DNA of 64,000 nucleotides, taken from NCBI RefSeq assembly GCF_023208195.1, contig NZ_CP060034.1:1550001-1614000 (forward strand). The letters are read 5' to 3'. The position numbers were made by a program, and so were the translations under genes. The stretch is from Nocardioides sp. InS609-2. Lineage in GTDB: Bacteria > Actinomycetota > Actinomycetes > Propionibacteriales > Nocardioidaceae. Below, in pieces: positions 1 through 16,521 of the stretch (position 1 is the stretch's first letter; each line of letters opens with the position of its first letter). Under the pieces are notes generated by a model, which searched no databases, was not told the origin of the DNA, and was given only the letters and a program-made list of their open reading frames with translations.

Positions 1-821
1 GTGATGCCCTCGATGGCCATGATGGTGGCGTCGACGCCGGGCTGCTTGGAACCCTTGAACAGGTCGGTGTGGTCGCCGGCCCAGGTGCTCACGCCGTTGA
101 GGTAGCAGCCGTCACAGTCGAACCCCTTGGGGAACTCCTTGGCCATCACCGAGCCCGGGCTGAACGGGAAGTTCTGCATGTTGCGCGGCAGGCTGATCAG
201 GACCGACTTGCCGGTCTCGGCGTCGACGCTGGCGATCGTCATCGAGTCGGGGCGCAGGCCCCACCGGCCGGCTCCGGAGTCGCCGCCGAGGAGCAGCACG
301 TTGAAGCGTCCGTCGTGGGCGCCGACCACCTCGCCGTCGCCGAACATCGTGATCATGAAGTCGCGTTGTACGCCGACCATGTGGGCGCCCATGAGCAGGG
401 TGCCGGCGACGGAGAAGCAGAGCACGCCGTTGACGCCGACCACGGCGAGCCGGTGGTTCTGCCGCAGGCTCAGTGGCTGACCGATCCGCCAGGCGTCGAC
501 GAAGAGGGCCGCCCAGCCGATGGCCAGCGCCATCAGGGCAAGGCGAAGCACCCCGAGCAACAAGGTGTTGGAGACCGCCCAGAAGGCGAAGTCCCTCGAC
601 GTGATGCTCGTGACAAGCGCGACCAGACCGAGCAGCACGAGGGCGAACCAGATGCGCAGCGCGATGCGCCCCACCCGACGGTTGCCCGCCACCAGCTGGG
701 CCGAACCCGGCAAGACGAGCGTCATCAGCATCAAAGACACGGCGCGCCGGAACCGCACGCGCGCAGCACGATCGACGACCCGGTTGTCGTCGCCGAGGGT
801 CTGGGTTGATGCGGAAGGCAT
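1..821 (-). CDS. LCP (LytR-CpsA-Psr) family protein, C-terminus outside window
   Basis: Partial gene; 273 codons are visible and the reading frame runs off the left edge. The N-terminus has about four hydrophobic segments (near residues 28-45, 54-72, 80-105 and 113-135), then an extracytoplasmic LCP domain beginning near residue 150 with NVLLLGGDSGAG and ISLPRNMQNFPF. In the family this domain binds a polyprenyl-phosphate-linked glycopolymer and transfers it to peptidoglycan at the outer membrane face. The ATG at 821 follows AGAGG by 8 nt. Four N-terminal membrane segments are more than the usual single anchor. A tandem GTCACA repeat lies 57 bp upstream (878-892). A second LCP gene is at 7116. 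Family identity is secure; the polymer substrate cannot be read from the sequence. Confidence 0.88.
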   Translation of the reverse strand, partial: MPSASTQTLGDDNRVVDRAARVRFRRAVSLMLMTLVLPGSAQLVAGNRRVGRIALRIWFALVLLGLVALVTSITSRDFAFWAVSNTLLLGVLRLALMALAIGWAALFVDAWRIGQPLSLRQNHRLAVVGVNGVLCFSVAGTLLMGAHMVGVQRDFMITMFGDGEVVGAHDGRFNVLLLGGDSGAGRWGLRPDSMTIASVDAETGKSVLISLPRNMQNFPFSPGSVMAKEFPKGFDCDGCYLNGVSTWAGDHTDLFKGSKQPGVDATIMAIEGI

Positions 822-877
822 CGAGGGCACCTCTGCTGGGGGGAAGGGGGCAGATGCGGTCCGGCCAAGTATCACCA

Positions 878-892
878 GTCACACGGGTCACA
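878..892. promoter_or_regulatory. Tandem GTCACA-N3-GTCACA site upstream of LCP gene (MtrA-box-like)
   Basis: GTCACA at 878-883 and again at 887-892, a 9-bp period, 57 bp before the LCP start codon. The same arrangement occurs at 44844-44858, 54 bp before the SpoIID/LytB gene and in the same orientation relative to the gene. Direct repeats of GTCACA-like 9-mers are the form described for the actinobacterial wall and cell-cycle regulator MtrA. That assignment is inferred. Confidence 0.45.
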
Positions 893-917
893 TCCGTGCA
901 GGCACGCCGAGCAACGG

Positions 918-1478
918 TCAGCCGGCGAACGCGCTCCGCAGCAGGGCAGCCTCTATCTCGCGGTCGGCAAAGACGAGGCGTACGGCGTCGGGGTCGTCGT
1001 TGCCGGCATCGGGCCCGCGCCAGACCAGCTCGAGCCCGACCTTGCCTGCGACGGCCGCCGAGGCGTGGTTGTGCTCGAGCAGGTAGGCGACGACCGGCCG
1101 CTCGGGTGCCACGTCGTGCGCCGCCTCGATCGCGGTGCGCGCCATCTCGGCGGCGTACCCCTGCCCCTGGGCGCTGGGCGCGAACCGGTAGTAGAGGTTC
1201 CACCACAGGCCGTGGTCGGGCACCGCACATCCGCCGCGGCCGATGACCGGGCCGTCGACACGTTCGCGCACCGACCAGTTGCCCAGCCCGTGCGCGTCCC
1301 ACTGGGCTTCGCCCTTGCCGACCATCTGCGCCGACTGCTCCCGCGTGGTGTGCCGGCCCTGCGGAAAGTGCCGCCAGGTGCCGGGGTCGCCGTGGATCGC
1401 GTGCAGGTCGTCGACATCGGCCTCGGCGGCCACGTCGAGCCAGAGCCGTTCGGTGCGGTGGTGACGCCAGTCGGTCAC
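918..1478 (-). CDS. GNAT family N-acetyltransferase
   Basis: 186 aa. A GNAT fold is indicated by a RimJ/RimL-like N-terminus (TERLWLDVAAEADVDDLHAI) and the acetyl-CoA-binding segment with SAQGQGYAAEM near residues 104-114, followed by a typical C-terminal segment (EHNHASAAVAGKVGLELV). It probably transfers an acetyl group from acetyl-CoA to an amine of a protein or small molecule; the substrate is unknown. The GTG at 1478 is chosen because it lies 2 nt after the CHAT gene stop; a TTG at 1484 would overlap that stop as TTGA. It is therefore the second gene of an operon with the TPR-CHAT protease, and might modify a component of that locus, though this is only contextual. Confidence 0.85.
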   Translation of the reverse strand: MTDWRHHRTERLWLDVAAEADVDDLHAIHGDPGTWRHFPQGRHTTREQSAQMVGKGEAQWDAHGLGNWSVRERVDGPVIGRGGCAVPDHGLWWNLYYRFAPSAQGQGYAAEMARTAIEAAHDVAPERPVVAYLLEHNHASAAVAGKVGLELVWRGPDAGNDDPDAVRLVFADREIEAALLRSAFAG

Positions 1479-1480
1479 AA

Positions 1481-4048
1481 TCAAACCCCCAGGGCAAGGA
1501 ACGCGGCAGCGGTCGCGGCGCGCGTCGGGTCGTCGGCCGCCGCCGTACGGGCACGGTGGAGCGCGGTGGGCAGATCCTCGCCGACGTCCAGGCCGGCATG
1601 GACGTCGACCATCACCTCGACGGTCGCCTCGTCGTTGACCACGGCCACGCTGGCCATGACTCCGGCGGTGCCGATCGCGAGCAGGGCCGACACCAGGCCC
1701 AGCAGCTCTCCGGCGCCGACCGGCGCGAGCACCCCGGAGTCGCACGCGGAGAGGATGACCCGATGCGGTGCCCGGACCAGCCGCTCGAAGTCGTAGACGG
1801 TCAGCGGCCCGTCAGCAAGGTCGAGCGAGGAGAACAGGGGCGAGTCGGCACGGAAGTGTCCGTGCGCGGCGAGATGCGCCAGCCCGGCTCCGTCGAGGGC
1901 CGCGAGCGCGCCGTCGACCGTCGCCTCCTGGTCGCGCAGGACGACGGCGTCGAGGTGGCGAGGGGCGACCACGCTGATCTCGGAGCCACCTGTGGTCAGC
2001 CCGGGTCCGGCCACGAACACCCGGCTGTCAGACGCTGACGTGCGCTCCCGCGCCCGCAGCCACAGCGCGCCCGACGGTACGACGGCGTGCGGCACGTCGG
2101 CCAGCACTGGCATGAGTCCCCACGGGGCGCCGTGCAGCCGGCTCGTCGGCGACACGACCACCGGACCCGGCAGTCGACGGGCGGCGACCCCCAGCACGGC
2201 GTGCTCGAGCCGGGCGCCGGCCTCCCCGAGCGGGGCCGGCCGACCGCGCGCGGCCTGTCGCAGCGTGAACCGCGCTGCCTCGGCGGCCCGCTCCGCATCG
2301 GCTACCGGGCCGACGACGTGCCGGCGTACGCGACCACCTGCGACGACGAGCGCGTGCAAGGTCCCGGCGATCTCCACCAGCTCGACGAACGAGCCCTCGC
2401 CCACGCCGGCAACGAGTGCCTCCGCGTCGAAGGCATCGGCAGAGCTGCTGTCGGCTCCCGACGCATGACGAAGCCGGGACCGCAGGTTCGACTCGATCCG
2501 GCGACGCTCCACCTCGAGCTGCTGGATGTCGCCACTGACCTCGCGTGCGGCACGCAGTCGTCGGGCGTTGTCGCGCAGGGCCGCGACGGGGCCGGCCACC
2601 TCGTCCGCGCCCGGGAAGACCCGCGGCTGCGCCAACGACGTGGCGCGCAGGCGCTCGCTCCACCCGAGCAGTCGTCGAGGACTTCCGTCGAGCGCCGTCT
2701 GCAGTGCGAGCTCGGCAAGGTCGACCCCATGACTGCTGGCCAGCGCGCGCAGCTCGGAGCTGCCCAGCGTGGCCCGATGCCGGTCGAGCTCGTCGAGCCC
2801 GCGCCGGCACGCGGCGAGAACACCTCGCCGATCGCCACGTTGCCCGCACTCCAGACCCTGGGCCAGCCATCCGGAGGCGCGAACCAGAGGCAGGCGATGG
2901 TCCGTCCGGTACGCCGCGCCGGCACGGAGTGCCTCTGCCGAGTCGTGCGGAGCAAGCCGCGCTACCAGCAACCACGCGTGCACGGCCTCGTCAGCACCCT
3001 CGGCCTGCAGAAGACGGGCCAGGTCGAGGGCACGCCGGGCGGTACGACGGTCGGCACCGTTGAGGGCCTCACCCGCACGCAGCTCGACCAGCTCGGCGCG
3101 CATCGCGAACCAGTCCCGACCGTGCTTGCGGAAGAGCCGGCTCGCCGTCCGGGCTTCTGCCAGTGCCACCTGGTTGTCGGCACCGGCGAGGAGCGCCTCG
3201 GCGCGTCTCAGCCGTAGGTCGGCCTCGCGGGTCGGTGCCAGCCCACCGCGGTCGAGGCGGTCCTGGGCCACTTGTGCGGCCTCCTCGGCCAGCCCGGCGA
3301 CGAGCAGGACATCCGCGCGATCAAGTGTCAGGTCGACCTCGTCGAGTCCGAAGCGTTCGAAGCGGGCGGAGGCCTCGTCGAAGAGTCGGAGGGACGTCGG
3401 CAGGTCACCACGCAGGAACGCGACGCCCGCGCGGTTGTGCAGCGACTGGGCGGCCTCGACCGGGAGGCCCTCCCGCTCGAACATCCGCTCCGCCCGGGTC
3501 GCGGCGCGAGCCGCGGCGTCCGGATCCCCGAGAGCCTGGTGGAGCGCGGAGACGTTGTTGAGCGTGCGCGCCTCCCAGACCCGGTCACCCGCGGTCTGCA
3601 CGCCCTCGAGCGCCCGTTCGAGGTCGGTCAGGGCTTCGCGGTGGCGCCCGAGGATGGTTGACAGCACGTACCCGCGGCGCATCAGCACCCGAGCCCGCAG
3701 CGCCGGGGACGGTGACTCGGCGACTGCGCGGTCCAGCTGGGCGAGCCCGGTGCGTCCACGTCCGGCCATCGCGTACGCCGCGCCGAGCGTGGCCCGCACG
3801 TCGGCGGACCTGTCGGCATCACGGGTGGAGACCGCCAGTCGCAGGGCTCGCCGCAGCTCAGGGAGCGCCTGCTCGACATCGCCCTGCTGACGGAGCGCCA
3901 GCCCGGCCGCATGGTGGGCGACCGACTGGAGCCAGGCACCGCGGGCCGACTGGGCGAGCTCACGAGCCGCTGCGTGCGCCGCGGCAGGATCGCTGATGGC
4001 GAGCAGCAGCAGGGCGTCGGCGACGGCCTCGTCACTTGCGCCTGGCAT
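1481..4048 (-). CDS. TPR-CHAT caspase-like cysteine protease
   Basis: 855 aa. Residues about 15-410 form an alpha-helical array of tetratricopeptide-like repeats (motifs such as QALPELRRALRLA, ALTDLERALEGV). A charged helical linker follows near 480-540 (QQLEVERRRIESNLRSRL), then a C-terminal CHAT domain from about 555. CHAT domains are caspase-fold cysteine proteases. The predicted dyad is present: His in HLAAHGHF (about residue 729) and Cys in LSACDSG (about residue 769). No signal peptide is seen, so it acts in the cytoplasm. The ATG at 4048 has GAGGAGG 7 nt upstream. It is divergent from a cytosolic S8 protease (gap 89 bp) and lies close to an ECF sigma gene. In TPR-CHAT proteins the TPR part usually senses a partner and the CHAT part cuts a specific protein. 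The substrate here is unknown; candidates are the neighbouring S8 protein and the 150-aa protein at 5425-5877. Confidence 0.9.
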   Translation of the reverse strand: MPGASDEAVADALLLLAISDPAAAHAAARELAQSARGAWLQSVAHHAAGLALRQQGDVEQALPELRRALRLAVSTRDADRSADVRATLGAAYAMAGRGRTGLAQLDRAVAESPSPALRARVLMRRGYVLSTILGRHREALTDLERALEGVQTAGDRVWEARTLNNVSALHQALGDPDAAARAATRAERMFEREGLPVEAAQSLHNRAGVAFLRGDLPTSLRLFDEASARFERFGLDEVDLTLDRADVLLVAGLAEEAAQVAQDRLDRGGLAPTREADLRLRRAEALLAGADNQVALAEARTASRLFRKHGRDWFAMRAELVELRAGEALNGADRRTARRALDLARLLQAEGADEAVHAWLLVARLAPHDSAEALRAGAAYRTDHRLPLVRASGWLAQGLECGQRGDRRGVLAACRRGLDELDRHRATLGSSELRALASSHGVDLAELALQTALDGSPRRLLGWSERLRATSLAQPRVFPGADEVAGPVAALRDNARRLRAAREVSGDIQQLEVERRRIESNLRSRLRHASGADSSSADAFDAEALVAGVGEGSFVELVEIAGTLHALVVAGGRVRRHVVGPVADAERAAEAARFTLRQAARGRPAPLGEAGARLEHAVLGVAARRLPGPVVVSPTSRLHGAPWGLMPVLADVPHAVVPSGALWLRARERTSASDSRVFVAGPGLTTGGSEISVVAPRHLDAVVLRDQEATVDGALAALDGAGLAHLAAHGHFRADSPLFSSLDLADGPLTVYDFERLVRAPHRVILSACDSGVLAPVGAGELLGLVSALLAIGTAGVMASVAVVNDEATVEVMVDVHAGLDVGEDLPTALHRARTAAADDPTRAATAAAFLALGV

Positions 4049-4137
4049 GGACCACCTCCTCAGACCTTCCCTGACCGGCCGGACATGGCTACGGTCCCAG
4101 AACCGGAGGCCCATCCTGACAGTGACCGGAGACAGCC

Positions 4138-5406
4138 ATGAGCGACTTCAAGATCGGCGACGACGGTCGGCGACGTACCACCGACCAGCTCCAGGCGCTC
4201 CGACGCGCCAACGACGACCGGGTGGCCTGGGACACCGAGGCCCCGGCGGACTTCACCTATCTCTACGACCCGGACCACGTCCTGGTCCGGGTCCGGGACG
4301 TCGAGGAGTTCGAAGCCGCACTCGGGCGCCTCGAGGGGATCTTCGACGGCAACGCCGAGCGTGGTGAGGACCCGGTGCCCGGCGAGCTGGCGCGGTACCG
4401 CCTCCCCGCACGTGCCAAGAACGAGACAGTCCCCGACATTCTCGACCTCCTGGACCTGGACGAGCGGTTCGGGCCCGGCCGGGTCACGCCCGACCACTGG
4501 ATCCACATCACGCCGGGGGGCTGCACGTGCTGCCCGGCGACCGAGCCCGAGGAGACCGGGCTCGTCGAGCCCTGGCCACCGGTCTGCACCGACCACGGCC
4601 GGGGCAAGGGCGTCAGCGTCGTCGTCGTCGACACCGGTTGGAACCCGCCCTCGGCGACCGACAACCGGACTCCCTGGCTCAAGCGCGTCGACGGGGACGA
4701 CGAGCTCAACGGCCCCGACCTGCGCGAGTACGCCGGCCACGGCACGTTCATCGCAGGCGTCGTCCGTTGTCTGGCGCCGGCCACCCGGGTCTTCGTCGAA
4801 GGCTTCGCGGTGGGCGGGGTCGGAGGCGGAGGCATCCTGGAGTCCGCCATGGTGACCCAGCTGACCGAGGCCCTCACCCACAAGCCGCAGGTCATCAACC
4901 TGTCCGCCGGCCTCCGGACGCGCGACGACCTCCCCCCGCTGAGCTTCGAGGTCTTCTACGAGACGCAGCTCCAGGGTCTCGACTGCGTCCTGGTCGCGGC
5001 TGCCGGCAACGACACGTCACCGGCGCCCTTCTGGCCGGCCGCCTTCGAGTGGGCGCTCGGCGTGGGCGCGCTCGACCGTGACGGGCGGGTGTCGGACTTC
5101 TCCAACTACGGGGTCTCCACCGACGTCTACGCCCTGGGCCGCAACATCGTCAACGCCTTCCCCGACGGCACCTACACGTGCTTCGAGACCCCGCACAAGG
5201 GCGACGTCCGCGTCTTCGACAGCGGCATGGCTCGCTGGAGCGGCACGTCCTTCGCCGCGCCCATCGTGGCCGGGCTGGTCGCCGCGGAGATCTCCGCCGC
5301 CGGGTGCTCGGCACACGAGGCCCGCGACACGGTGGTGGCCCGCGCCGTCAGGATGTCCGACCCCACGATCGGCCCGATCGAGGCGCTCCGCCAGCCCTAC
5401 TGCTGA
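4138..5406 (+). CDS. Cytosolic S8 (subtilisin-like) serine protease
   Basis: 422 aa with the complete subtilase catalytic set: Asp165 in VVVVDTGW, His201 in GHGTFIAG, oxyanion Asn291 in AAAGNDT and Ser371 in SGTSFAAP. There is no signal peptide or membrane segment, which is unusual because most S8 proteases are secreted. Residues 1-155 are an uncharacterised N-terminal region that ends in a Cys-rich patch (C129, C131, C132, C150) just before the catalytic domain; it could be a pro-region, adaptor or metal site. The ATG at 4138 follows CCGGAG. The gene is divergent from the TPR-CHAT protease and convergent with the sigma-factor pair (18-bp gap to 5425). A proteolytic cascade with the CHAT protein is an attractive but untested idea. 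Confidence 0.9.
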   Translation: MSDFKIGDDGRRRTTDQLQALRRANDDRVAWDTEAPADFTYLYDPDHVLVRVRDVEEFEAALGRLEGIFDGNAERGEDPVPGELARYRLPARAKNETVPDILDLLDLDERFGPGRVTPDHWIHITPGGCTCCPATEPEETGLVEPWPPVCTDHGRGKGVSVVVVDTGWNPPSATDNRTPWLKRVDGDDELNGPDLREYAGHGTFIAGVVRCLAPATRVFVEGFAVGGVGGGGILESAMVTQLTEALTHKPQVINLSAGLRTRDDLPPLSFEVFYETQLQGLDCVLVAAAGNDTSPAPFWPAAFEWALGVGALDRDGRVSDFSNYGVSTDVYALGRNIVNAFPDGTYTCFETPHKGDVRVFDSGMARWSGTSFAAPIVAGLVAAEISAAGCSAHEARDTVVARAVRMSDPTIGPIEALRQPYC

Positions 5407-5424
5407 GCACCAGAGGACTCGGCG

Positions 5425-5877
5425 TCAGAGGACGAACCACTCCGTGACGTACCTCGAGTCTCCCGACTCGATGGAGAAGCGCACGAGCCCGTGGTCCTCC
5501 CCGTCGAGGGTGAAGAAGCCGGACTTGTCAGGGGTGGTCGAGCGGAGCCGCCCATCTGCGGACTCGAAGGCCACCTCGGCGGCGCCCGGGCCGGTGAGCC
5601 GACCCATCACTTGACGGTTGACCAGCTCTACCTCGAGGCTCAGCTCGCCACCGGTGAACTCCAGCACGCGGGCGGCGCTGGCCCCGCGGACGGCGGGTCC
5701 CGCCTCCGTGTCGGAGTCGTAGGTCAGGGCGAGCAGCTCCTGGTCGATGGTGCGCCAGGCGAAGGCACCGCGAGCGGCCTCTCGCCAGCCCACCGGGACG
5801 GCAGGGTCCTGCCTGAGCGCGTCGCGTAGCTCGTCCATCAGGGCGTCATCGCCACTGTCGTCAGCATCGTGTGACAT
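5425..5877 (-). CDS. Small protein encoded with ECF sigma factor, function unknown
   Basis: 150 aa, not assigned to a named family. It has an acidic N-terminus, a helical stretch (DELRDALRQDPAVPVGWREA) and a segment GAFAWRTIDQEL. The C-terminal half, from about residue 68, is predominantly beta (ARVLEFTGGELSLEVELV) and could be a small Ig-like or carboxypeptidase-regulatory-like fold. The ATG at 5877 has GGGAGGG upstream and lies inside the sigma gene, overlapping its end by 17 nt, so translation is probably coupled. Equimolar co-production with a sigma factor suggests a sigma regulator such as an anti-sigma or adaptor. It has no zinc-binding HxxxCxxC anti-sigma motif and no membrane helix. 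It is also a candidate substrate of the nearby proteases. Confidence 0.75.
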   Translation of the reverse strand: MSHDADDSGDDALMDELRDALRQDPAVPVGWREAARGAFAWRTIDQELLALTYDSDTEAGPAVRGASAARVLEFTGGELSLEVELVNRQVMGRLTGPGAAEVAFESADGRLRSTTPDKSGFFTLDGEDHGLVRFSIESGDSRYVTEWFVL

Positions 5878-6469
5878 TGCGGTGCCCTCCCGTTCCTCCG
5901 GAGCCCATGGAGTCCGTCCAGGACCGCAAGGCACGAGTGCCGCGCAGCTGGGACAGTGCGCGGGCCCGGGTGGGCCCGATGCTGCCGACCGGGATGCCGA
6001 GCCGGCGGCTGATCTCGTCGTACGACGTGGGCGGGTCGGTGGACAGCAGGGTGAGCAGCTCGCGGCGCTCCACGGGAAGCTCGGACAGCGCCGCGTGCAG
6101 CACCTGGGCGCGCTCGTCGCGAAGCAGCGCCTCGGCGACGTCCTCGTCGTCGACGACGTCCAGCGTCGCGGCCTGCGGATCGACCGGCAGCGAGCGGTTG
6201 CGAACTTCCAGCAGGCGCAGCGACTCACGTCGCGCGGTCGTCATGAGCCACCCGGCCAGGGCTGCGGGCTCGCGAAGATCCGCGAGATGCTCGACCAATC
6301 GCAGCCAGACCGTCTGGTTGACGTCAGCGGCATCGGCCGGAGACAAGCGGTAGCGGGAGATGACCCCGTGCACCAGCGGCAGGAACCGGTCGACCAGCGC
6401 ATCCCACGAGGCGGAGTCCCCGTCGCGCGCGGCGACCACCAGCGCGGAGACTGTGGGGGTCGGGTCCAT
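5861..6469 (-). CDS. ECF-type RNA polymerase sigma factor
   Basis: 202 aa. Region 2 occupies about residues 12-95 (FLPLVHGVISRYRLSPADAADVNQTV core-binding and -10 region, ALAGWLMTTARRESLRLL). Region 4 is about 130-180, with helix-turn-helix YDEISRRLGIPVGSIGPTRA. It directs RNA polymerase to a dedicated promoter set. The start is taken as ATG 6469, preceded by GGAAAGAG; an upstream TTG at 6496 would add nine residues. The C-terminus has a Gly-rich tail (SMGSGGTGGH) encoded where the next gene begins. The downstream 150-aa gene overlaps by 17 nt. Its position beside two proteases suggests sigma output controlled by proteolysis, but the target promoters are not evident. Confidence 0.88.
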   Translation of the reverse strand: MDPTPTVSALVVAARDGDSASWDALVDRFLPLVHGVISRYRLSPADAADVNQTVWLRLVEHLADLREPAALAGWLMTTARRESLRLLEVRNRSLPVDPQAATLDVVDDEDVAEALLRDERAQVLHAALSELPVERRELLTLLSTDPPTSYDEISRRLGIPVGSIGPTRARALSQLRGTRALRSWTDSMGSGGTGGHRNVTRC

Positions 6470-6585
6470 CGAACTCTTTCCACGCGGCTTTGCCAAGGAT
6501 GGCGGTGTGGCTTCGATATGTCGTCATGACGATACAGAGGGCCGACGGTGCTTCTTGATACGTCTCGGGCGCGTCAGTCAGTCAG

Positions 6586-7092
6586 TCAAGCTTCTCGGCC
6601 GCGCTCGATCTCCTGCTTGCGAGCCAACCGGTGGGCGCGGCGGATCTCGGCCTCGCGCTGGCGACGTACCTCCGACGGCGTCTGCGGCAGCAGCTCCGGC
6701 ACCGGGCGCGAACGGCCGTCGGCGTCGATCGCGACGAAGACGAAGTACGCCGACGCGACGTGCAGCGGCTCGTCGGTCGCGCTCCCCCACGGCTGCGCCT
6801 CGACGCGCACGCCGATCTCCATCGACGAACGCCCGGCCCAGTTGACCTGGGCGAACGTACGCACGATGTCGCCGACGTGCACCGGCTGGAGCAGCGCCAT
6901 CTCGTCGAGCGCCGCGGTCACGGCGGGCCCACCACTGTGTCGCTGCGCCACGGCTCCGGCCGTCGAGTCGGCCAGCTTCATGATCTCGCCGCCGTGCACG
7001 TTGCCCAGCAGGTTGGCCTCGGTGCTGCTCGTGATGACGCCCAGCGAGACACGGGAGTACGACGGCGGCAGGGCGCTCCGCGGTTCACTCAT
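6586..7092 (-). CDS. Hotdog-fold acyl-CoA thioesterase (YciA/BACH type)
   Basis: 168 aa. A single hotdog domain is indicated by SLGVITSSTEANLLGNVHGG, where Asn and His of GNVHGG lie near the catalytic site, and by ALDEMALLQPVHVGDIV with the conserved acidic residue. The family hydrolyses short- to medium-chain acyl-CoA in the cytosol. The C-terminal tail is highly charged (RRQREAEIRRAHRLARKQ). The ATG at 7092 lies 6 nt after a TACCGT hexamer and has no Shine-Dalgarno sequence, so the mRNA is probably leaderless. It is divergent from the LCP gene at 7116 with only 23 bp between start codons. Confidence 0.9.
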   Translation of the reverse strand: MSEPRSALPPSYSRVSLGVITSSTEANLLGNVHGGEIMKLADSTAGAVAQRHSGGPAVTAALDEMALLQPVHVGDIVRTFAQVNWAGRSSMEIGVRVEAQPWGSATDEPLHVASAYFVFVAIDADGRSRPVPELLPQTPSEVRRQREAEIRRAHRLARKQEIERGREA

Positions 7093-7098
7093 GCGCGC

Positions 7099-7108
7099 AC
7101 GGTAGCGT
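7099..7108. promoter_or_regulatory. Overlapping divergent -10 elements
   Basis: The 23-bp gap between two divergent start codons (7092 and 7116) carries ACGGTAGCGT. Read on the minus strand this gives TACCGT 6 nt before the thioesterase ATG. Read on the plus strand it gives TAGCGT 7 nt before the LCP ATG. The two hexamers share the central TA pair. Both spacings fit leaderless transcription starting at the initiation codon, so only one gene could be initiated at a time from this DNA. Confidence 0.6.
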
Positions 7109-7115
7109 CTCGGCC

Positions 7116-8372
7116 ATGGCAGAACGTCCCCCGGGGAAGGGTGGCCCGGAGGAGGGCACACCCGAATACAACTGGCTCTACGGCAAGGGCAACGACAGCC
7201 CGCCCCCGGACGATGTCACGCGTGCCGTACCCCGCTCGACTCGTCCGCGCACCGACGAGACCCGGGTAATGCCGACGATGTCGCGAGGCGACCGCGCTCG
7301 CGGTGACCGCGAGCAGGGCGGCGCCACCCAGACCTCCCCCGTCTCCCCGCCGCCACCTCCGCGCGACCCCGGCACGAGCCGTGGCGCTGGTGGGCGGCCA
7401 CCGTCGTCCGGCCGGCGACTGCCCCGGTTCCGGCTGCGCTGGGTCAAGTATGTGCTCATCCTGTGGCTGATCTTCCTGATCGCGGTGCCCTTCTGGGCGT
7501 GGAGCAAGGTGACGAAGGTCGACGCGATGCCGGGCGGTGACCGTCCCGCGGACCAGCCGGGCACGACGTACCTCCTGGTCGGCAGCGACTCCCGCGCCGA
7601 CCTCACCGCGGCGGAGCGCAAGGAGCTCGGCACCGGCGGCGACGTCGGCCAGCGCACCGACACGATCATGCTGCTGCACACCGGGTCCGGCCCCAACCTG
7701 CTGATGTCGATCCCGCGCGACTCGATCGTCGACATCCCCGGTCACGGCACCACCAAGATCAACGCGGCGTACGCGTTCGGCGGACCCAAGCTGCTGATCA
7801 GCACCATCGAGCAGAACACCGGCATCCGCGTCGACGACTACGTCGAAATCGGGTTCGGGGGCTTCGTCGGCATGGTCGACGCCCTCGGCGGCGTCGAGAT
7901 CTGTCCCAACAACGCCATGAGGGACCCGCTGGCCAACCTGGATATCAAGAAGGGCTGCCAGGAGGCCGACGGCAAGACCGCACTGGGCTACGCCCGCTCG
8001 CGGCACACCTCCCAGAAGCTCGGCGACGTCAAGCGCGCCCAGCACCAGCGCGAGGTCGTCTCGGCGATCGGCAGCGAGGCGGTGTCGCCGTGGACCGTCA
8101 TCAACCCGGTGCGCTACTACCGACTCGCGATGGCTGCGTCGCGATCCTTCGACGTCAGCGACGGCACCAGCGCGTTCTCGCTCGGCAGGTTCGGCTTCGC
8201 GATGACGCGTGTCGATGGCAAGAACGGCCTGACGTGCGGCGTCCCGATCAGCGACCTGGCCGTCAACTGGGACGAAGACCGGTCGCAGGAGATGTTCAAG
8301 CACATCATCGAGGACGACACCGACGGCATCGCCAAGCAGTTGTGCACGCCGTCCGGCCTCCCACCTCGCTGA
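7116..8372 (+). CDS. LCP (LytR-CpsA-Psr) family glycopolymer transferase
   Basis: 418 aa. Residues 1-108 are a Pro/Arg/Gly-rich cytoplasmic region, followed by one membrane helix at about 110-130 (YVLILWLIFLIAVPFWAW). The LCP domain begins near residue 148 with TTYLLVGSDSRADL, then QRTDTIMLLHTGSG and LLMSIPRDSIVDIPG, which supply the conserved Arg/Asp residues for pyrophosphate-lipid and metal binding. It ends with LGYARSRHTSQK. The likely role is attachment of a wall glycopolymer to peptidoglycan at the outer membrane face. ATG 7116 is 7 nt after a TAGCGT hexamer with no Shine-Dalgarno sequence. It is a different paralogue from the gene at 1-821, which has several membrane segments. Confidence 0.93.
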   Translation: MAERPPGKGGPEEGTPEYNWLYGKGNDSPPPDDVTRAVPRSTRPRTDETRVMPTMSRGDRARGDREQGGATQTSPVSPPPPPRDPGTSRGAGGRPPSSGRRLPRFRLRWVKYVLILWLIFLIAVPFWAWSKVTKVDAMPGGDRPADQPGTTYLLVGSDSRADLTAAERKELGTGGDVGQRTDTIMLLHTGSGPNLLMSIPRDSIVDIPGHGTTKINAAYAFGGPKLLISTIEQNTGIRVDDYVEIGFGGFVGMVDALGGVEICPNNAMRDPLANLDIKKGCQEADGKTALGYARSRHTSQKLGDVKRAQHQREVVSAIGSEAVSPWTVINPVRYYRLAMAASRSFDVSDGTSAFSLGRFGFAMTRVDGKNGLTCGVPISDLAVNWDEDRSQEMFKHIIEDDTDGIAKQLCTPSGLPPR

Positions 8373-8437
8373 CCTCGACTCGAGCCCTGCCGGCTGTGCC
8401 AGACTCCTAGGCTCGGTTCACACGAGGGGATATTGAG

Positions 8438-9130
8438 ATGCGCCGAGCGATCCAGGGTCTGTTGTTCTGTCTGGTCGCCTCACTGCTGGTGGCCGCGCCC
8501 GCGGAGCTCGCGGCGGCGAGCCAGAGGTACGACTGCAACCCGGCAGACGGGTCGTTCACGACCCTCGACAAGCGCGTCTATCGGCATCAGCCGTCCGGGA
8601 GCATGGGCGTCTACGCCGACATCAAGAACAAGACCCGCACCTGGCGGACGCAGGTGCGGGGCCAGGTCTGCTTCTACGACAAGCGCGGAAGGGTGATCGA
8701 CAACGGTCTGGTGTACGCCGACCAGCTCGCCGTCGCGCCGGGGCAGAAGATCTCGTTCTACATCTCCGAGCACGCCCCCGCCGGCTGGCACCACTACACG
8801 CTGCGCTTCGTGAGCAAGAAGACCAGGCTGCGGGCGGTGACGAGCAAGGTCGACGTCACGACCGGTGAGATCGCGGTCGATCCCTACGGCTCCCTCGAGG
8901 TGCCGGTGAGCGTGCGCAACGACAACAGCTTCCCGATCGAGCACGTCGCCGTCTCCGTGAGCCTGTACGACGCCGACGACCGACTCATCAGCATCGACAC
9001 AACGAGCTACAACTACACCGACCCGAGCACCCTCGCTCCCGGGGCCACGGGCACCTACACGGCCGCCGCCTTCGCCAACTTCGAGGGCCTCAGACGGGTG
9101 CGGCTCAGCGTCGAGGCGTTCCGCCCCTGA
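8438..9130 (+). CDS. Secreted protein of unknown function
   Basis: 230 aa with a clear Sec signal peptide (GLLFCLVASLLVAAPAELAA, cleavage probably after the Ala run near residue 28). The mature part is predicted all-beta, with segments such as YADIKNKTRTWRTQVRGQV and VPVSVRNDNSFPIEHVAV that resemble FxLYD/NEAT-like Ig folds of surface proteins, though no family can be named with confidence. ATG 8438 has GAGGGGAT upstream. It stands alone between the LCP gene and a pseudogene. Confidence 0.75.
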   Translation: MRRAIQGLLFCLVASLLVAAPAELAAASQRYDCNPADGSFTTLDKRVYRHQPSGSMGVYADIKNKTRTWRTQVRGQVCFYDKRGRVIDNGLVYADQLAVAPGQKISFYISEHAPAGWHHYTLRFVSKKTRLRAVTSKVDVTTGEIAVDPYGSLEVPVSVRNDNSFPIEHVAVSVSLYDADDRLISIDTTSYNYTDPSTLAPGATGTYTAAAFANFEGLRRVRLSVEAFRP

Positions 9131-9133
9131 CCG

Positions 9134-9291
9134 TCACGCGACGCAGAACTCGTTGCCCTCCTGGTCGACGAGCGATGCGCCGTGCGGGTCGTCGTACCGG
9201 GCTCGCCGATATAGCCCAGGGCCAGCGCCCAGAAGGCGGCAAGCCGATGGGGGTCGTTCGCGTCACAGCCGAGGGTCCAGTACGTCGCCAT
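9134..9291 (-). pseudogene. VOC/glyoxalase-like protein, internally deleted and frameshifted
   Basis: The first 30 codons read like the start of a VOC-family (glyoxalase/bleomycin resistance fold) protein: MATYWTLGCDANDPHRLAAF followed by WALALGYIGEPG. Immediately after, a frame change is needed to continue with YDDPHGASLVDQEGNEFCVA and a stop at 9134-9136. That is the familiar family continuation and C-terminus placed directly after the N-terminal block. A normal member is about 115-140 aa, so the middle of the gene is missing and the two ends are out of frame. The remnant cannot encode a working fold. Confidence 0.75.
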
Positions 9292-9399
9292 GCGCGCATG
9301 GCTATGTGGCTGATATCCGGTTATCCACAGGCGGCGTCAGGAGCCGGGAGGGGACGACCCCATTGTGGAAGGCTTGCTGCCCTCTCGGAAGGAAAGCCC

Positions 9400-10101
9400 A
9401 TGAAACACCGCCTCGCCGCCGGCACGTCGACCGTTCTCCTCGCCGTCCTCAGCCCACTGGCCACCTCGACATCGGCGCACGCGGCGACGCCGACCGCCGT
9501 CGTCACCATGGAGGACTTCGTGCTGTGGGACGGCTGCAACGACTATCCGTACACCTACTCCGTCGACCCGGCAGGCAGTACGCGCTGGACCATGACGACC
9601 TATCACCACGAGGGCGGCTGGTGGGGCATCACCGATGGTCAGGTGGACAGCCGCGACAATGCCGCTGCGGGCACCGCCTACTTCCAGTTCTGTGACACGG
9701 GCACGCCTCTGGGGGCGTACCCGATCTTCGGCAGGCTGAACGCGGATGCCGGCCCCATCTTCATGACCACGTCCGACACCTTCACGGTCCGCCGGCCCGC
9801 GACCCAGACTCTCATCGAGGTCTCCGACAACACCCCCAGACCCGGCCAGCAGGTCGAGGTTCGTCTCGTGACGATGGTCGAGACCCCGACGGGCTTCGTC
9901 CGTGATGACTCCTCGGTCCTCCAGCTCCAGCAGAAGACGAAGAAGGGCTGGCAGAAGATCGCCAAGAAGAGGACCGACAAGGGCCAGGCCAAGACCGGAT
10001 TCCGTTACCGGGGCGGCAAGGTCACGCTGCGCGGCAAATCCGTCGGCTCGAGCAGCGACAACGACACCGGCTCCTTCTCGGTCAAGGTCACGTTCGGCTG
10101 A
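9400..10101 (+). CDS. Secreted protein of unknown function
   Basis: 233 aa. A signal peptide spans about residues 1-29 (TSTVLLAVLSPLATSTSAHA), with cleavage after AHA. The mature protein has two parts. The N-terminal domain is rich in aromatics with two Cys (WDGCNDYPYTYSVD, FQFCDTG) that may form a disulfide. The C-terminal domain of about 90 residues begins LIEVSDNTPRPGQQVEVRLV and ends [10 protein letters not shown], the style of an Ig-like repeat in actinobacterial exported proteins. The ATG follows GGAAGGAAAG. Its 3' end overlaps the convergent eda gene by 14 bp. Confidence 0.75.
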   Translation: MKHRLAAGTSTVLLAVLSPLATSTSAHAATPTAVVTMEDFVLWDGCNDYPYTYSVDPAGSTRWTMTTYHHEGGWWGITDGQVDSRDNAAAGTAYFQFCDTGTPLGAYPIFGRLNADAGPIFMTTSDTFTVRRPATQTLIEVSDNTPRPGQQVEVRLVTMVETPTGFVRDDSSVLQLQQKTKKGWQKIAKKRTDKGQAKTGFRYRGGKVTLRGKSVGSSSDNDTGSFSVKVTFG

Positions 10102-10735
10102 CGAGCGCCGCGGCGTCCCTCGCGAGCTCGGTGATCAGCTCCCAGTCACCCGCCGCCACGGCGTCCTTGGGCGTCAACCACGAGCCACCCACGCATCCGA
10201 CGTTGGGCAGCGCCAGGTAGCTCGCTGCCGTGGCCGGCGTGATCCCACCGGTCGGGCAGAACCGCGCGTCGGGCACCACCGAGGCGAGCGCAGAGAGGTA
10301 CGCCGCGCCACCCGAGGCCTCGGCCGGGAAGAACTTCAGCTCGGTCAGCCCGGCCTCGCGGGCAGCCAGCACCTCTGAGACCGTGGCCGTGCCGGGCAGG
10401 CACGGCAGACCCGTGTCGACCATCGCGGCCAGCAACCCCGGCGTCGCGCCGGGCGAGACGAGGAAGCGGGCGCCCGCGTCGTACGCCCGCTTCGCATGGC
10501 CGGGGCTCAGCACCGTGCCGGCGCCGACGATGATCTCGGGCACCTCACCGGCGATCGCGCGGATCGCATCGAGGGCCGCGGGCGTGCGCAGGGTGAGCTC
10601 GATGACTGGGACGCCGCCGGCGACCAGGGCACGAGCGAGGGGTACGGCGTGGGCGACGTCGTCGACCACCACGACCGGGATCACCGGGGTGAGGTCGAGC
10701 AGCGACTCAGGCGGTGACTCAGGCGTGCTCGACAA
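10088..10735 (-). CDS. eda: KDPG (2-keto-3-deoxy-6-phosphogluconate) aldolase
   Basis: 215 aa class I aldolase that splits KDPG to pyruvate and glyceraldehyde-3-phosphate, the last Entner-Doudoroff step. Family motifs: [15 protein letters not shown] with the catalytic Glu, [17 protein letters not shown] and the Schiff-base Lys in [12 protein letters not shown]. The phosphate site is in [12 protein letters not shown] at 10735 is chosen as start because GGAGG sits 6 nt upstream; it overlaps the end of edd by 17 nt, which implies translational coupling. No ATG or GTG gives a better start. It is the third gene of the zwf-edd-eda operon. Confidence 0.93.
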
Positions 10736-12578
10736 CGCGCACCTCCATGCCGTCCTGAGAAGCCGTGCCGTACGCCGGGAAGACACTCGCGCCGGCATCG
10801 GCCGGTCCGACCGTGGCGCGGAACGCGGCGAACAGCTCGCGGCCGGTGCCCGACCACTCCTCACCCTGCGGGGCGCGACCGGTCGGCTCGCGCGACGACA
10901 GGTCGGCGTCGATCTCGAGCACGCCGGCATCGGCGTCGAGGGTGACCCAGTCGCCGTCGCGGACCCGGGACAGCGGTCCCCCGACCGCCGCCTCGGGAGT
11001 CACATGGATGGCCGCAGGCACTTTGCCGGAAGCGCCGGACATCCGGCCGTCGGTGACGACCGCAACCCGTTGGCCGCGGTCCTGGAGTACGCCGAGAGCC
11101 GGCGTCAGCTTGTGCAGCTCGGGCATCCCGTTGGCGGCCGGCCCCTGGTAGCGGATGACCGCCACGAAGTCTCGGGCGTCGAGCTCACCGGCGCCGAAGG
11201 CCGTGAGGAAGTCGCCCTGGTCGTCGAAGACGATCGCGGGTGCGGTGACCGCACGATGCTCCGACCTGACCGCCGAGGTCTTGATGACGCCGGTGCCGAG
11301 TCCCCCGGTGAGCACCTTGAGGCCACCGTCGGGCGCGAACGGCACGTCGGCCGGGCGGAGCACGTCGAGGTCGAGGCTCGCCTTCGGCCCCTCCTCCCAC
11401 GTCACCTCGCCACCGGACAGACGCGGCTCCGTCGTGTAGTGCCACAGCCCGCGGCCTGCCACCGTGAGCACCTCGTCGTGCAGCAGACCCGCGCGCAGCA
11501 ACGTGTGCACGAGGAACGCCACCCCGCCGGCGGCGTGGAAGTGGTTGATGTCGGCCGAGCCGTTGGGGTAGACCCGCGCCAGAGACGGCACCACGGCCGA
11601 GAGGTCGGAGAGGTCCTGCCAGGTGAGGTGGACGCCAGCAGCGCGAGCGATCGCGACCAGGTGCATCGTGTGGTTGGTCGACCCACCACTGGCCAGGAGC
11701 GCCACGCACGCGTTGACGATCGCGCGCTCGTCGACGATCTCGCCGACCGGTGTGGGCTCGCCGCCGAGACGAGTCAGCTCGGTCACCCGTCGCCCGGCGG
11801 CGTCGGTCAGGGCCTCGCGCAGCGGCGTACCCGGGTTGACGAACGCGGAGCCCGGCAGGTGCAGCCCGAGCACCTCCATCAGCAGCTGGTTGGAGTTGGC
11901 GGTGCCGTAGAACGTGCAGGTGCCTGCCGAGTGGTACGACGCGGACTCGGCCGCCAGCAGCTCGTCCCGGCCGACCTTGCCCTCGGCGTGCAGCTGGCGC
12001 ACGCGCGCCTTCTCACCGTTGGGCAGGCCGGAGGTCATCGGACCGGCCGGCACGAAGATCGTCGGCAGGTGCCCGAACGACAGCGCCCCGATCAGTAGCC
12101 CGGGCACGATCTTGTCGCAGACGCCGAGCATCAGGGCGCCGTCGAACATGTCGTGCGACAGGGCGATCGCGGTCGACATCGCGATCACGTCGCGGCTGTA
12201 GAGCGAGAGCTGCATGCCGTCGCGGCCCTGGGTGATGCCGTCGCACATGGCGGGGACTCCCCCGGCGACCTGGGCGATGCCGCCCGCCTTGATGACGGCC
12301 TTCTTGAGCTGCCGCGGGAACGTCTCGAACGGCTGGTGCGCCGACAGCATGTCGTTGTAGCTGGTGACGATCGCCAGGTTGGGCTTGGTGCGCCCGCGCA
12401 GCGTCTGCTTGCCCGGCTCGTCGGCGGCTGCGAAGCCGTGCGCGAGGTTGGCGCAGGCGAGCCTGTCGCGCGCGGGGCCCTTGTCTGCGGCGGCGCGGAT
12501 ACGGCGCAGGTACGACGAGCGCGAGGCCGCGCTGCGTTCGACGACGCGGTCGGTGACGGCCTGGACCGTCGGGTTCAT
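10719..12578 (-). CDS. edd: 6-phosphogluconate dehydratase
   Basis: 619 aa member of the IlvD/Edd Fe-S dehydratase family. It converts 6-phosphogluconate to KDPG in the cytosol. Visible motifs include [32 protein letters not shown] and GVCDKIVPG (cluster-ligand cysteines), [15 protein letters not shown] (third ligand), [10 protein letters not shown] and the C-terminal [18 protein letters not shown]. Length fits Edd rather than the shorter IlvD. ATG 12578 lies 9 nt after the zwf stop. An in-frame GTG at 12590 overlaps that stop and has GGAG 8 nt upstream, so it is a real alternative adding four residues. Middle gene of the operon. Confidence 0.95.
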
Positions 12579-12586
12579 GGGTGTCT

Positions 12587-14083
12587 TCACTGGTCTGACT
12601 CCTGCCAGGTGCGGCCGTCGCGCTCGATGAGGGTCGCGGCAGCGGTGGGGCCGGACGTGCCGGCGGCATAGCGCAAGGGCCGGTCGGGCGACGTTGCCCA
12701 CCGGGTGAGGATCGGCTCGATCCAGGTCCACGCGGCCTCGACCTCGTCGCGGCGCATGAACAGCGTCGGGTTGCCCTTCATCACGTCCATGAGCAGCCGC
12801 TCGTAGGCGTCGGGCGAGGCCTGGTCGAAGGCCGTGGCATAGCTGAGGTCGAGCGAGACCGGCCGCAGTCGGTAACCGCCGGGGCCGGGCTCCTTCGCGG
12901 TCAGGTGGAGGCGCATGCCCTCGTCGGGCTGCACCTGGATGTGCAGGCTGTTGGGCTGCGTGACGCCCTCGCTGTGCGGGAACATCGCGTGCGGCGGCTC
13001 CTTGAAGACCACCACGATCTCCGACGTACGCCGGTCCATCCGCTTGCCTGTGCGCAGGTAGAACGGCACCCCGGCCCATCGCCAGTTCTGCACCTCGGCA
13101 CGCAGTGCCACGAAGGTCTCGGTCGTGCTGTCGTCGTGCCCCAGCTCCTCGGCGTACGACGCGACGGGCTGGCCGTCGACCAGGCCGACCCCGTAGCGAC
13201 CGCGCACCGTGTCGCGGTCGACGTCGTCGGCCGCCATCGGGCGCAACGCCTGGAGCACCTTGAGCTTCTCGTCACGCACGGTCTCGCGACCGACGTACGT
13301 CGGCGGCTCCATGGCGACAAGGCAGAGCAGCTGGAGCAGGTGGTTCTGCACCATGTCGCGCAGCGCGCCGGCGTGGTCGTAGTAGCCGCCGCGCTCCCCG
13401 ACACCGAGCGACTCGGCGACCGTGATCTGCACGTGGTCGACCCAGCGGAAGTTCCAGAGCGGCTCGAGGAAGGTGTTGGCGAAGCGGGTGACGAGCAGGT
13501 TCTGCACGCTCTCCTTGCCGAGGTAGTGGTCGATGCGGAAGATCTGCGACTCCTCGAACACCGACCCGACGGCGTCGTTGATCGCCTGTGCGGAGGCGAG
13601 GTCGTGACCGACCGGCTTCTCCATGACGACGCGGGCGTTGGCGTCGGCGGCGCCGATCTCGTCGAGGCGTCGGCAGATCGGGCCGAAGAGGCCGGGTGCC
13701 ACCGCGAGGTAGAACACCCGGACCGCATCGTCGTGGCGGGGGCGGTCCTTCAGCAGACCGTGCAGGTGGTGCCAGTCGTCGTGGTCGAGGACGTCGAGCC
13801 GCACGTGGTGCACCCGCACCAGCAGCCGGCTGATCGACTCGTCGTCGAGCAGACCCGGCGCGACGTACGTCGTGAGCGCGTCGGCGACCAGTGCGCGGTA
13901 GCCGTCGTCGTCCAGGTCGCTGCGGGTGACCCCGATGATCCGGGTGTCGTCTGGCAGATGGCCCTCGCGGTCGCGCAGGTAGAGCGCGGGCAGCAGCTTG
14001 CGCAGGGCCAGGTCGCCGGAGCCACCGAAGACGGTGAAGTCGCAGACCTCGGGGTGCGCGGGGGCCGGATGCGGAGCACTCAT
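12587..14083 (-). CDS. zwf: Glucose-6-phosphate 1-dehydrogenase
   Basis: 498 aa. It oxidises glucose-6-phosphate to 6-phosphogluconolactone with NAD(P)+, feeding the Entner-Doudoroff and pentose phosphate routes. The nucleotide-binding fingerprint is [20 protein letters not shown] near residue 18. The active-site signature is RIDHYLGKE, followed by [11 protein letters not shown] and [11 protein letters not shown], all at family positions. The ATG at 14083 is 7 nt after TAGCGT with no Shine-Dalgarno, so a leaderless transcript is likely; a GTG at 14089 is only 1 nt from the hexamer. First gene of zwf-edd-eda, divergent from a ROK regulator. Confidence 0.96.
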
Positions 14084-14090
14084 GTGCACA

Positions 14091-14126
14091 ACGCTAGAAA
14101 GGTCTTACGCTCTTGGCAAGCGTAAG
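14091..14126 (-). promoter_or_regulatory. zwf promoter with inverted-repeat operator
   Basis: On the minus strand TTGCCA (14114-14119) and TAGCGT (14091-14096) are separated by 17 nt, an ideal -35/-10 pair, with the start codon 7 nt further on. A perfect inverted repeat, CTTACGCT at 14104-14111 and AGCGTAAG at 14119-14126 with a 7-nt loop, straddles the -35 element and spacer. A repressor bound there would block zwf-edd-eda. The divergent ROK gene starts 74 bp away and is the obvious candidate. Confidence 0.65.
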
Positions 14127-14199
14127 TTCAAACTTTTTCAGACTTATCGGGCCGAGTACAGTGCCCCCGCGATACCCAAGTAAGCGAAGAGGAGCCGAG

Positions 14200-15357
14200 A
14201 TGGACCTCGTCCGACAGACCTCCGCCGGCGACGTGCTCGAGCTGGTGCGCACCGGCCAGGCCCGCACCCGCACCGAAGTGGGCCAGCTGACCGGCCTCTC
14301 CCGCACTGCTGTGCTGGCCCGCGTCTCGGCGCTGGTCGTCGCCGGGCTCGTGCTGCCCGGCGACGAGCTCACCTCCACGGGCGGCCGACCGGCGGCCTCG
14401 CTCGTGTTCAACCACGAGGCCGGGGTGGTGCTGGCCGTCGCGGTGGGCCGCTCACGCAGCCAGCTCGGGGTCCTCGACCTCACCGGCCGCGAGCTGGCCA
14501 GCGACTCCCGAGACCACGCCGTCGGCATCACCGCCGCCGAGCTGATGCCCACGCTCGTCGCCCGGCTCACGTCGCTGCTCGCCGACGTCGCTCCCCCGGT
14601 CCTCGCCGTCGGGATGAGCATCTCGGGGCTGGTCGACCAGGTGCGGATGGTCAGCGTCGACTCGCCGGTCATGCGCGGCTGGGACGGCGTCGAGCTCGCG
14701 CCGTACGTCGCGGAGATCACCGACGCCCCGCTCTTCCTCGTCAACGACGCGCAGGCGCTGGCGCGGTCGGAGCTGTTCGGCCGGCCCGACCCGCCGCGCG
14801 AGGCGCTGGTCGTGAAGGCGTCGACCGGCCTCGGGCTCGGCATCATCTCGGGCGGCCGGGTGCTTACCGGCTCCGCCGGGGCGAGCGGCGAGATCGGCCA
14901 CAGCAAGCACCCGCGAGCCGACGAGCTGCCCTGCCGGTGCGGGGCCACCGGATGCCTGGAAGCAATCGCCGGCGGCTGGGCGCTGCTCGCGACGTACGCC
15001 GACGGCGGCGGCGAGGCCGCCCACATCCGCGAGCTGGCGGCCCACGCCGTCGAGGGCGACACCCTGGCCCGGCGGCTGCTGCGTCAGGCCGGCCGGGACC
15101 TCGGCGAGCTGCTCGCCGTGGCGATCAACCTGCTCAACCCGCAGACCGTCGTCATCGGCGGGGACATGGCGATCGCGTTCGACACGTACGCCGCGGGCGT
15201 GCGCGAGGCGATCTACGCCGACGGCACCGCACGCAGCGTGCGCGACCTCGACCTGCGCCCGAGCCTGCACGGCGAGCATGCCGGGCTGGTCGGCTGCGCC
15301 GCAGTGGCGATCGAGGGCGTGCTGGCTCCCGCGTCGGTCGACGCGCGGCTGCGCTGA
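14200..15357 (+). CDS. ROK family transcriptional repressor
   Basis: 385 aa. The N-terminal winged helix (about 1-75) has RTRTEVGQLTGLSRTAVLAR as its helix-turn-helix. The ROK sugar-kinase-like domain follows, with the zinc motif CRCGATGCLEAIAGG near residues 246-258, ASGEIGHS before it, and NPQTVVIGGDMA near the end. ROK regulators of this type release DNA when a sugar or sugar phosphate binds. ATG 14200 has AGAGGAG upstream. Divergence from zwf-edd-eda and the inverted repeat over the zwf promoter indicate that it controls Entner-Doudoroff flux; the inducer is unknown. Confidence 0.9.
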   Translation: MDLVRQTSAGDVLELVRTGQARTRTEVGQLTGLSRTAVLARVSALVVAGLVLPGDELTSTGGRPAASLVFNHEAGVVLAVAVGRSRSQLGVLDLTGRELASDSRDHAVGITAAELMPTLVARLTSLLADVAPPVLAVGMSISGLVDQVRMVSVDSPVMRGWDGVELAPYVAEITDAPLFLVNDAQALARSELFGRPDPPREALVVKASTGLGLGIISGGRVLTGSAGASGEIGHSKHPRADELPCRCGATGCLEAIAGGWALLATYADGGGEAAHIRELAAHAVEGDTLARRLLRQAGRDLGELLAVAINLLNPQTVVIGGDMAIAFDTYAAGVREAIYADGTARSVRDLDLRPSLHGEHAGLVGCAAVAIEGVLAPASVDARLR

Positions 15358-15360
15358 GCG

Positions 15361-16338: not shown

Positions 16339-16467
16339 TCGCTGGCTCCCTCAGGGGCTGGTCGTAAGGACGGGCCGAGCGTAACCGCACCGGGCCCGCC
16401 CCGCCACGGCCAGTCGTCCAACGAGCGTCCAGATTCCCCTTGTGTTGCCCGAACAGTCGACGTACGC

Positions 16468-16483
16468 TCGCGATATATCGCGA
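16468..16483. promoter_or_regulatory. 16-bp perfect palindrome, probable PadR operator
   Basis: TCGCGATATATCGCGA is its own reverse complement and lies 39 bp before the PadR gene ATG. ATAT/CGCG-type dyads are typical of PadR-family operators, and PadR proteins usually repress themselves. A weaker inverted repeat, GACGC-N3-GCGTC at 16488-16500, follows. Confidence 0.6.
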
Positions 16484-16521
16484 CAGTGACGCGATGCGTC
16501 GTACAAAACAAGGAGATCGAG

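Follow-up and report, generated by a model that had tools for sequence, protein, structure and literature searches.

An ECF54-type gene module of Actinobacteria as a possible proteolytic switch that controls a self-amplifying sigma factor without CRISPR

Can a TPR-CHAT protease, a caspase-like enzyme, govern an ECF sigma factor through proteolysis where no CRISPR system takes part? The question is raised by a four-gene locus of Nocardioides sp. InS609-2, which lies within the 64,000 nt stretch of DNA that we analysed (the window). The initial annotation proposed that the TPR-CHAT protease (CHAT), once triggered, cuts a 150 aa protein (P150) or activates an S8 protease (S8), and so releases the sigma factor (SIG); overall, this interpretation is partly supported. 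Our preferred reading, that the ECF54-type module is a CRISPR-free proteolytic switch acting on a self-amplifying sigma factor, is one that we hold tentatively, with slightly more doubt than belief.

The placement of all four genes was borne out by ORF coordinates and Pfam. The longest ORF of the CHAT gene (1481..4048, minus strand; 855 aa; Pfam CHAT E 9e-22, TPR_12 E 3e-14) starts at 4114 and encodes 877 aa. The ATG at 4048, preceded by GAGGAGGTGG, is the likelier start, and the gap to the divergent S8 gene is therefore 89 bp (4049..4137), not 23 bp. The catalytic cysteine had been numbered correctly: His729 (codon 1862..1864, minus strand) and Cys769 (codon 1742..1744, minus strand) of the 855 aa form correspond to residues 751 and 791 of the 877 aa ORF. 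The S8 gene (4138..5406, plus strand; 422 aa; Pfam Peptidase_S8 E 2e-26) encodes the triad Asp165/His201/Ser371. On the minus strand, the genes for P150 (5425..5877), a putative sigma partner, and SIG (5861..6469; 202 aa) share the 17 nt overlap previously claimed (5861..5877), and SIG carries the sigma2 and sigma4 regions of an ECF factor (Pfam Sigma70_r2 E 2e-12, Sigma70_r4_2 E 1e-6).

Recurring linkage of the four genes, which the initial annotation had made one test of its proposal, is plain. We examined 152 loci (the window, L019-L035, L096-L115, L146-L179 and L180-L259), of which 122 hold all four genes, representing 118 distinct actinobacterial loci. Of the 80 named loci retained when SIG alone served as the search profile, 63 are complete, so the linkage exceeds chance. 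Both proteases retain their active-site residues in the four-gene loci, and the CHAT cysteine and histidine are each conserved in 58/58 of the aligned loci that hold the region. Gene order is variable, with 15 arrangements among the 118 loci. The coupling of the small protein to the sigma factor is confirmed, with P150 encoded downstream of SIG in the same orientation in 115 of the 118 and a possible 4 nt ATGA overlap between them in 35/59; in the other three, including the ECF54 model species, P150 lies on the strand opposite SIG. On this comparative evidence, the four genes are genuine and belong together. The ORFs of the 152 loci yielded no natural fusions of the four proteins, as the only two with two domains (L035 and L101) proved to be out-of-frame read-on in frameshifted genes.

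This grouping is not new, as it has already been published, in the available text of a 2022 review, as the genomic context of ECF54 (CHAT, subtilase and 'carboxypeptidase' proteins), with a mention of untested proteolytic control (PMC8999054). The ECF54 model protein, SFT86700.1, comes from Geodermatophilus amargosae. The G. amargosae locus holds all four genes, and the single strong sigma-family match in that species (E 5e-61, the next being 1e-17) is a candidate for SFT86700.1. Judged by this link, SIG probably belongs to ECF54. The remaining context agrees, with S8 and CHAT recognized by Pfam and the carboxypeptidase-like member only weakly, through a P150 relative (L025) that matches CarboxypepD_reg below the cut-off (E 0.05).

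Within the module, sequence co-variation separates two pairs. Values are 0.72 for SIG and P150 and 0.77 for S8 and CHAT; a bridge between P150 and CHAT reaches 0.35 with plain distances and only 0.07 with ranks, so only the two pairs are robust. SIG and P150 form a locked pair, and the two proteases make up the other co-varying pair. These values bear on an alternative suggested by the ECF54 review, which describes such a mode for this class of regulation in its available text (PMC8999054): the proteases would hold the system off by degrading SIG, with P150 as a co-factor, chaperone or adaptor. With P150 taken into account, however, SIG retains no residual co-variation with either protease (-0.13 and 0.00), and the inseparable extra gene, which also bears an invariant linker arginine, is P150 and not SIG. 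We consider SIG degradation unlikely.

The arginine in question, Arg64 (codon 5686..5688, minus strand), is invariant in 108/108 non-redundant P150 sequences and sits in a linker that is modelled with low confidence. The AlphaFold2 model of P150 (pLDDT 81) predicts two N-terminal helices and a beta-sandwich with no peptidase domain, and Pfam gives no peptidase match. A Foldseek search with this model returned nothing at E 0.001 or better, and no anti-sigma chains were among the fold matches listed; these matches mostly cover residues 46-150, so that the helices were barely probed. Arg64 could alternatively be a docking or structural residue.

What SIG might transcribe is suggested by a promoter-like element, GTATCA-N16-CTC, at 6537..6561 (minus strand) upstream of SIG, which is found near the module in other genomes too. 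In its relaxed form, GTATC[A/T]-N16-CTC, the element precedes the module in 82 of the 118 loci and is missing from 36, while a reversed control gave 0. Across genomes, an excess of the element is confined to those that carry the module's CHAT. The exact form has two matches in the 4.52 Mb window genome, one of them upstream of SIG; the relaxed pattern shows no excess there (16 versus 20 in the control), and a search by element matches found no wider regulon in this genome.

The position of the element is relevant to whether SIG lies upstream or downstream of the proteases. Among the 118 loci the gene that follows the strict element is SIG in 37 cases, S8 in 18, P150 in five and CHAT in none; a single relaxed site was attributed to CHAT. 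The absence of the strict element before CHAT fits a role for CHAT as the upstream sensor. Conversely, the 18 cases before S8 would suit a scheme in which the protease pair is the output of SIG and acts elsewhere, with P150 as a protease inhibitor or chaperone, as would a strict element before a trypsin/Nal1-like protein in one locus (L153), whose Pfam scores are below the cut-off. A comparable Nal1-like identity for a gene in L202 was rejected, as Pfam gives no match. Against this scheme, the strict element stands directly before CHAT in 0/118 loci, the window has it before neither S8 nor CHAT (GTATCA is absent from their shared gap), and it is SIG, rather than a protease, to which P150 is tied. 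The scheme appears improbable to us.

The suggestion that S8 is a zymogen looks correct on the predicted fold. The AlphaFold2 model (pLDDT 89, pTM 0.91) has unprocessed pro-subtilisin E as its closest structural match and aligns with pro-subtilisins over residues 45-422; its secondary structure places a predicted prodomain, of the inhibitory kind that precedes the catalytic domain in subtilisin zymogens, at residues 42-123 (4261..4506, plus strand). As S8 resembles self-processing subtilisins, activation by CHAT may not be required. No signal peptide was seen by eye in the window S8. The S8 proteins of two other loci (L160 and L217) have apparent Tat-like signals, also judged by eye, which fit a cytosolic step poorly.

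Both proteases have weak PADLOC matches to defence proteins (for CHAT, BovA at E 0.005; for S8, a subtilase model at E 6e-9 and IetS at E 3e-6), and CHAT proteases function in CRISPR defence according to the available text of PMC10028731; an anti-phage or programmed-death system, with the sigma response secondary, might be imagined on these grounds. However, the window P150 used as query found no relatives at E 1e-5 among 50,697 phage records; a set of 72,556 plasmid records gave a single one, located on an 11.85 Mb replicon, and the window genome itself has one P150 match. A primarily anti-phage role is, in our estimate, very unlikely.

Returning to the proteolytic switch, our data are consistent with a model in which P150 would keep SIG inactive until CHAT perceives a trigger through its TPR portion. 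The P150 linker would then be cut, most likely at the invariant Arg64, either by CHAT itself or by way of S8. Released SIG would start transcription at GTATC[A/T]-N16-CTC promoters, beginning with its own, and fresh P150 made together with fresh SIG would reset the system. A bolder version, which we regard as doubtful, is a widespread CRISPR-free cascade of Actinobacteria in which an arginine-specific CHAT cuts both the pro-subtilisin linker (a tandem array in some genera) and the anti-sigma P150 after Arg64, freeing SIG to amplify its own operon from these promoters.

To the published grouping our work adds a probable promoter signal and a probable site of cleavage, both absent from the available text of the literature; the published ECF54 classification may itself contain a motif. 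In that available text, the ECF54 sentence is the only mention of a non-CRISPR relay of this kind. What is there a context prediction without mechanism thereby gains testable parts: a promoter sequence, a single arginine, a predicted non-enzymatic partner and a predicted zymogen.

Among the closest known systems is ECF54, whose sigma factors share the module's carboxypeptidase-like, subtilase and CHAT neighbours; the published account is a gene-context prediction and, in its available text, treats the carboxypeptidases as peptidases, whereas P150 is predicted to lack a peptidase domain (PMC8999054). S8 differs from zymogens such as pro-subtilisin E and pro-Tk-subtilisin in its apparent lack of a signal peptide in the window and, in other genera, in short tandem repeats ahead of the catalytic domain; seven copies of PFTRGA form one such array. 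The cleavage of RseA by DegS and RseP likewise releases an ECF sigma factor through a protease cascade (a comparison drawn in the available text of PMC10028731), but the four window genes include no membrane anti-sigma factor and their products look cytosolic by eye.

In Craspase, as the same text describes it, Csx30 is both the substrate that Csx29 cuts and the protein that binds and inhibits CASP-sigma (PMC10028731). The likeness of design that had been drawn to this relay stands: a TPR-CHAT protease with a His/Cys dyad, an ECF sigma factor and a two-part partner protein are common to both. In sequence the resemblance is slight, as the 150 aa P150 finds no Csx30-named PDB chain by profile at E<=1 and CHAT matches Csx29 structures weakly (E 0.005, residues 745-831 of 877). 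The module also adds a second protease. The claim that CRISPR is absent held up, with neither Cas7-11 nor another CRISPR component found with the CHAT gene: the window genome has no RAMP or Cas1 match (PF03787 and PF01867, for which 4 and 9 of 14 control genomes were positive), and window positions 1-20000 hold no family of direct repeats of at least 20 bp. On the best reading, the module works in the manner of Craspase without belonging to that system. Should the proposed switch prove right, sigma control by TPR-CHAT proteases would be a bacterial design of general reach, independent of CRISPR; were the bolder cascade true, Craspase would be the CRISPR-captured version of the same design.

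The sigma gene of the window (SIG, 5861-6469, minus strand) overlaps P150, the 150-aa gene for its putative partner (5425-5877, minus strand), by 17 nt, and the subtilisin-like protease gene S8 (4138-5406, plus strand) is convergent with P150 and divergent from the TPR-CHAT protease gene (CHAT, 1481-4048, minus strand). The host genome is a single contig of 4.52 Mb, of which the window spans 1550001-1614000. The window is a mosaic. Its S8 shares 64-68% identity with one Nocardioides subgroup and 41-50% with a second, and SIG reverses this order, with about 32-37% identity to the S8-near subgroup and 53-62% to the other.

As a lone query, the window P150 found matches in 18/149 Nocardioidaceae genomes, and a P150 profile did so in 41/296 genomes across the phylum. 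All four genes were present in 16 of the 17 Nocardioidaceae loci located by P150, the exception being genome G120, in which SIG-P150 is found at about 2.57 Mb and S8-CHAT at about 3.45 Mb. The set was complete in 18/20 loci selected among CHAT matches in 60 genomes (the incomplete ones being the second half of G120, and G068), in 24/34 loci drawn from 48 phylum-wide P150 places outside the window, some of the incomplete ones stopping at a contig edge, and in 63 of the best 80 named loci of a SIG-only search with at least 564 candidates; seven of those best 80 carried SIG without the other three. Pooled, 122 of 152 loci were complete, 118 with distinct sigma DNA; because the loci were chosen through module-gene matches, these fractions do not estimate how often random genomes carry the set. 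The 118 loci displayed 15 gene arrangements, and in 115 of them P150 was the gene immediately behind SIG, in the same orientation. A set kept together despite scrambled gene order constitutes a functional unit. Some genomes carry several copies, including G190 (three P150 places) and G245, where locus L148 (contig C7) has two matches each to P150, S8 and CHAT. S8 was not found in L158, where its usual place is occupied by a protein divergent from CHAT (10335-11906, minus strand) that matches NAL1_N below threshold (E 0.0015).

Partial correlations of distance matrices, computed on 46 loci dereplicated from 62 well-covered ones, were high for SIG-P150 (0.72) and S8-CHAT (0.77), and low for SIG-S8 (-0.13), SIG-CHAT (0.00) and P150-S8 (0.10; 0.12 with ranked distances); P150-CHAT gave 0.35, or 0.07 with ranked distances. 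Such pairs are by themselves no proof of contact, because adjacent genes are also co-inherited. The halves of G120 (L030 and L097), about 0.9 Mb apart, are the same two pairs.

In an alignment of the first 59 four-gene loci, CHAT keeps its His and Cys in 58/58 (L028, in which a contig end cuts the region, was excluded) and S8 its Asp, His, Asn and Ser in 59/59; across 102 non-redundant S8 sequences, each of these four residues was conserved at 98-99%. S8 is predicted to be a pro-form. Many S8 genes (L100-L115, L148, L151, L153, L154, L156, L159, L165, L168, L172 and others) encode 3 to 11 tandem hexapeptide repeats of variable sequence N-terminal to the catalytic domain, with units such as PFTRGA, NPYHSG, DPIHEP, PVTSGH and PFWGGH. 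By eye, the S8 N-termini in L160 and L217 carry a twin-arginine-like signal (SRRRxLA plus a hydrophobic stretch), from which the window S8 differs.

The 250 nt preceding SIG contain a GTATCA motif in 14/14 loci of the order SIG-P150-S8-CHAT and in 29/31 loci sharing the window's gene order. Among 87 GTATCA sites near module genes, in 86/130 loci, 45 had CTC at a spacing of 16 and 15 at a spacing of 17, where the mean per spacing was 3.8; Lentzea and relatives have the variant GTATCT-N16-CTC. The strict form of this element occurred in 60 of the 118 loci (50 shuffles: mean 0.44, largest 2), preceding SIG in 37, S8 in 18, P150 in five and CHAT in none. Its relaxed form, GTATC[AT]-N15-17-[CG]TC, was present no more than 400 bp ahead of a module gene in 82/118 loci, compared with 0 for the reversed pattern; one relaxed site, in L171, was assigned to CHAT. 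Genome-wide, GTATCA-N16-CTC had 264 matches versus 107 for the reversed control in 53 Nocardioidaceae genomes with CHAT (classed by a CHAT match below 1e-20 alone, not by all four genes), and 203 versus 261 in 89 without (Mann-Whitney p 3e-10, ignoring kinship and counting the module's own sites); seven ambiguous genomes, set aside, had 16 versus 19. This excess, together with the occurrence near the module, ties the element to the module at the sequence level and makes it the likely promoter of the module's sigma factor.

Other upstream features were seen. In L238, GTATCT is repeated four times at 16-nt steps upstream of SIG, the final copy being followed by N16-CTC. In L207 and 13 other loci of the Lentzea group, the perfect palindrome AGCTTGATCAAGCT lies within an operator-like block in the CHAT/S8 divergent gap that is identical in 14/14 aligned loci. 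The window has a palindrome, TCGTCATGACGA, upstream of SIG (region 6541-6556), after the -10-like CTC of the putative SIG promoter; the aligned relatives showed no such palindrome.

The element precedes the same four dispersed genes in G056, G088 and G134, which represent three species of genus g19, in regions chosen by eye among the matches listed: candidate targets encoding a hemerythrin-domain protein, an FAD-linked oxidoreductase and an acyl-carrier-like protein (the last two named by eye), plus a secreted protein whose S55 match falls below threshold. Several g19 sites lie within long open frames, and intergenic position is not proven for all. Beside modules, element-preceded genes encode a trypsin/Nal1-like protein (L153; Pfam scores slightly under cut-off), a nucleotide-cyclase domain (L196), an animal-type haem peroxidase with GTATCA upstream (L239; An_peroxidase E 2e-91) and a HopA1-family domain protein (L103:2831-3580, minus strand; Pfam E 2e-18), among others. 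Sigma relatives without module genes in L223, L231 and L243 adjoin long proteins that by eye resemble the L239 protein. Thirty element sites inspected in seven further genomes revealed no common theme of downstream genes; several downstream proteins looked secreted, and some sites were apparently coding. The window genome has two exact matches, one being the SIG site, and its relaxed matches show no excess over control (16 versus 20); for this genome we therefore do not propose a regulon.

The sequences establish a four-gene unit, two pairs within it, kept catalytic residues and a module-linked element. Our data are consistent with a model in which P150, predicted to be non-enzymatic, inhibits SIG. 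CHAT may be the sensor and first protease, because the strict element never directly precedes it. A cut at or near P150 Arg64, made by CHAT itself or perhaps by way of S8, would release SIG, and the freed sigma factor would switch its own operon on again.

In Craspase, according to PMC10028731, Csx30 binds and inhibits CASP-sigma, and the TPR-CHAT protease Csx29 cleaves Csx30. That relay is CRISPR-based, whereas the window genome has no Cas1 or RAMP match, and the window CHAT matches Csx29 weakly; what links the two is a working principle. The genome of Geodermatophilus amargosae, source of the model protein for the published sigma group ECF54, contains a single strong match to the window's sigma family (E 5e-61; next 1e-17). 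This match sits in L251 together with P150, CHAT and S8, and the sigma gene there is likely that of SFT86700.1. Since the ECF54 model species carries its strong sigma match within a four-gene locus, the window module belongs to a known but uncharacterised kind, probably ECF54.
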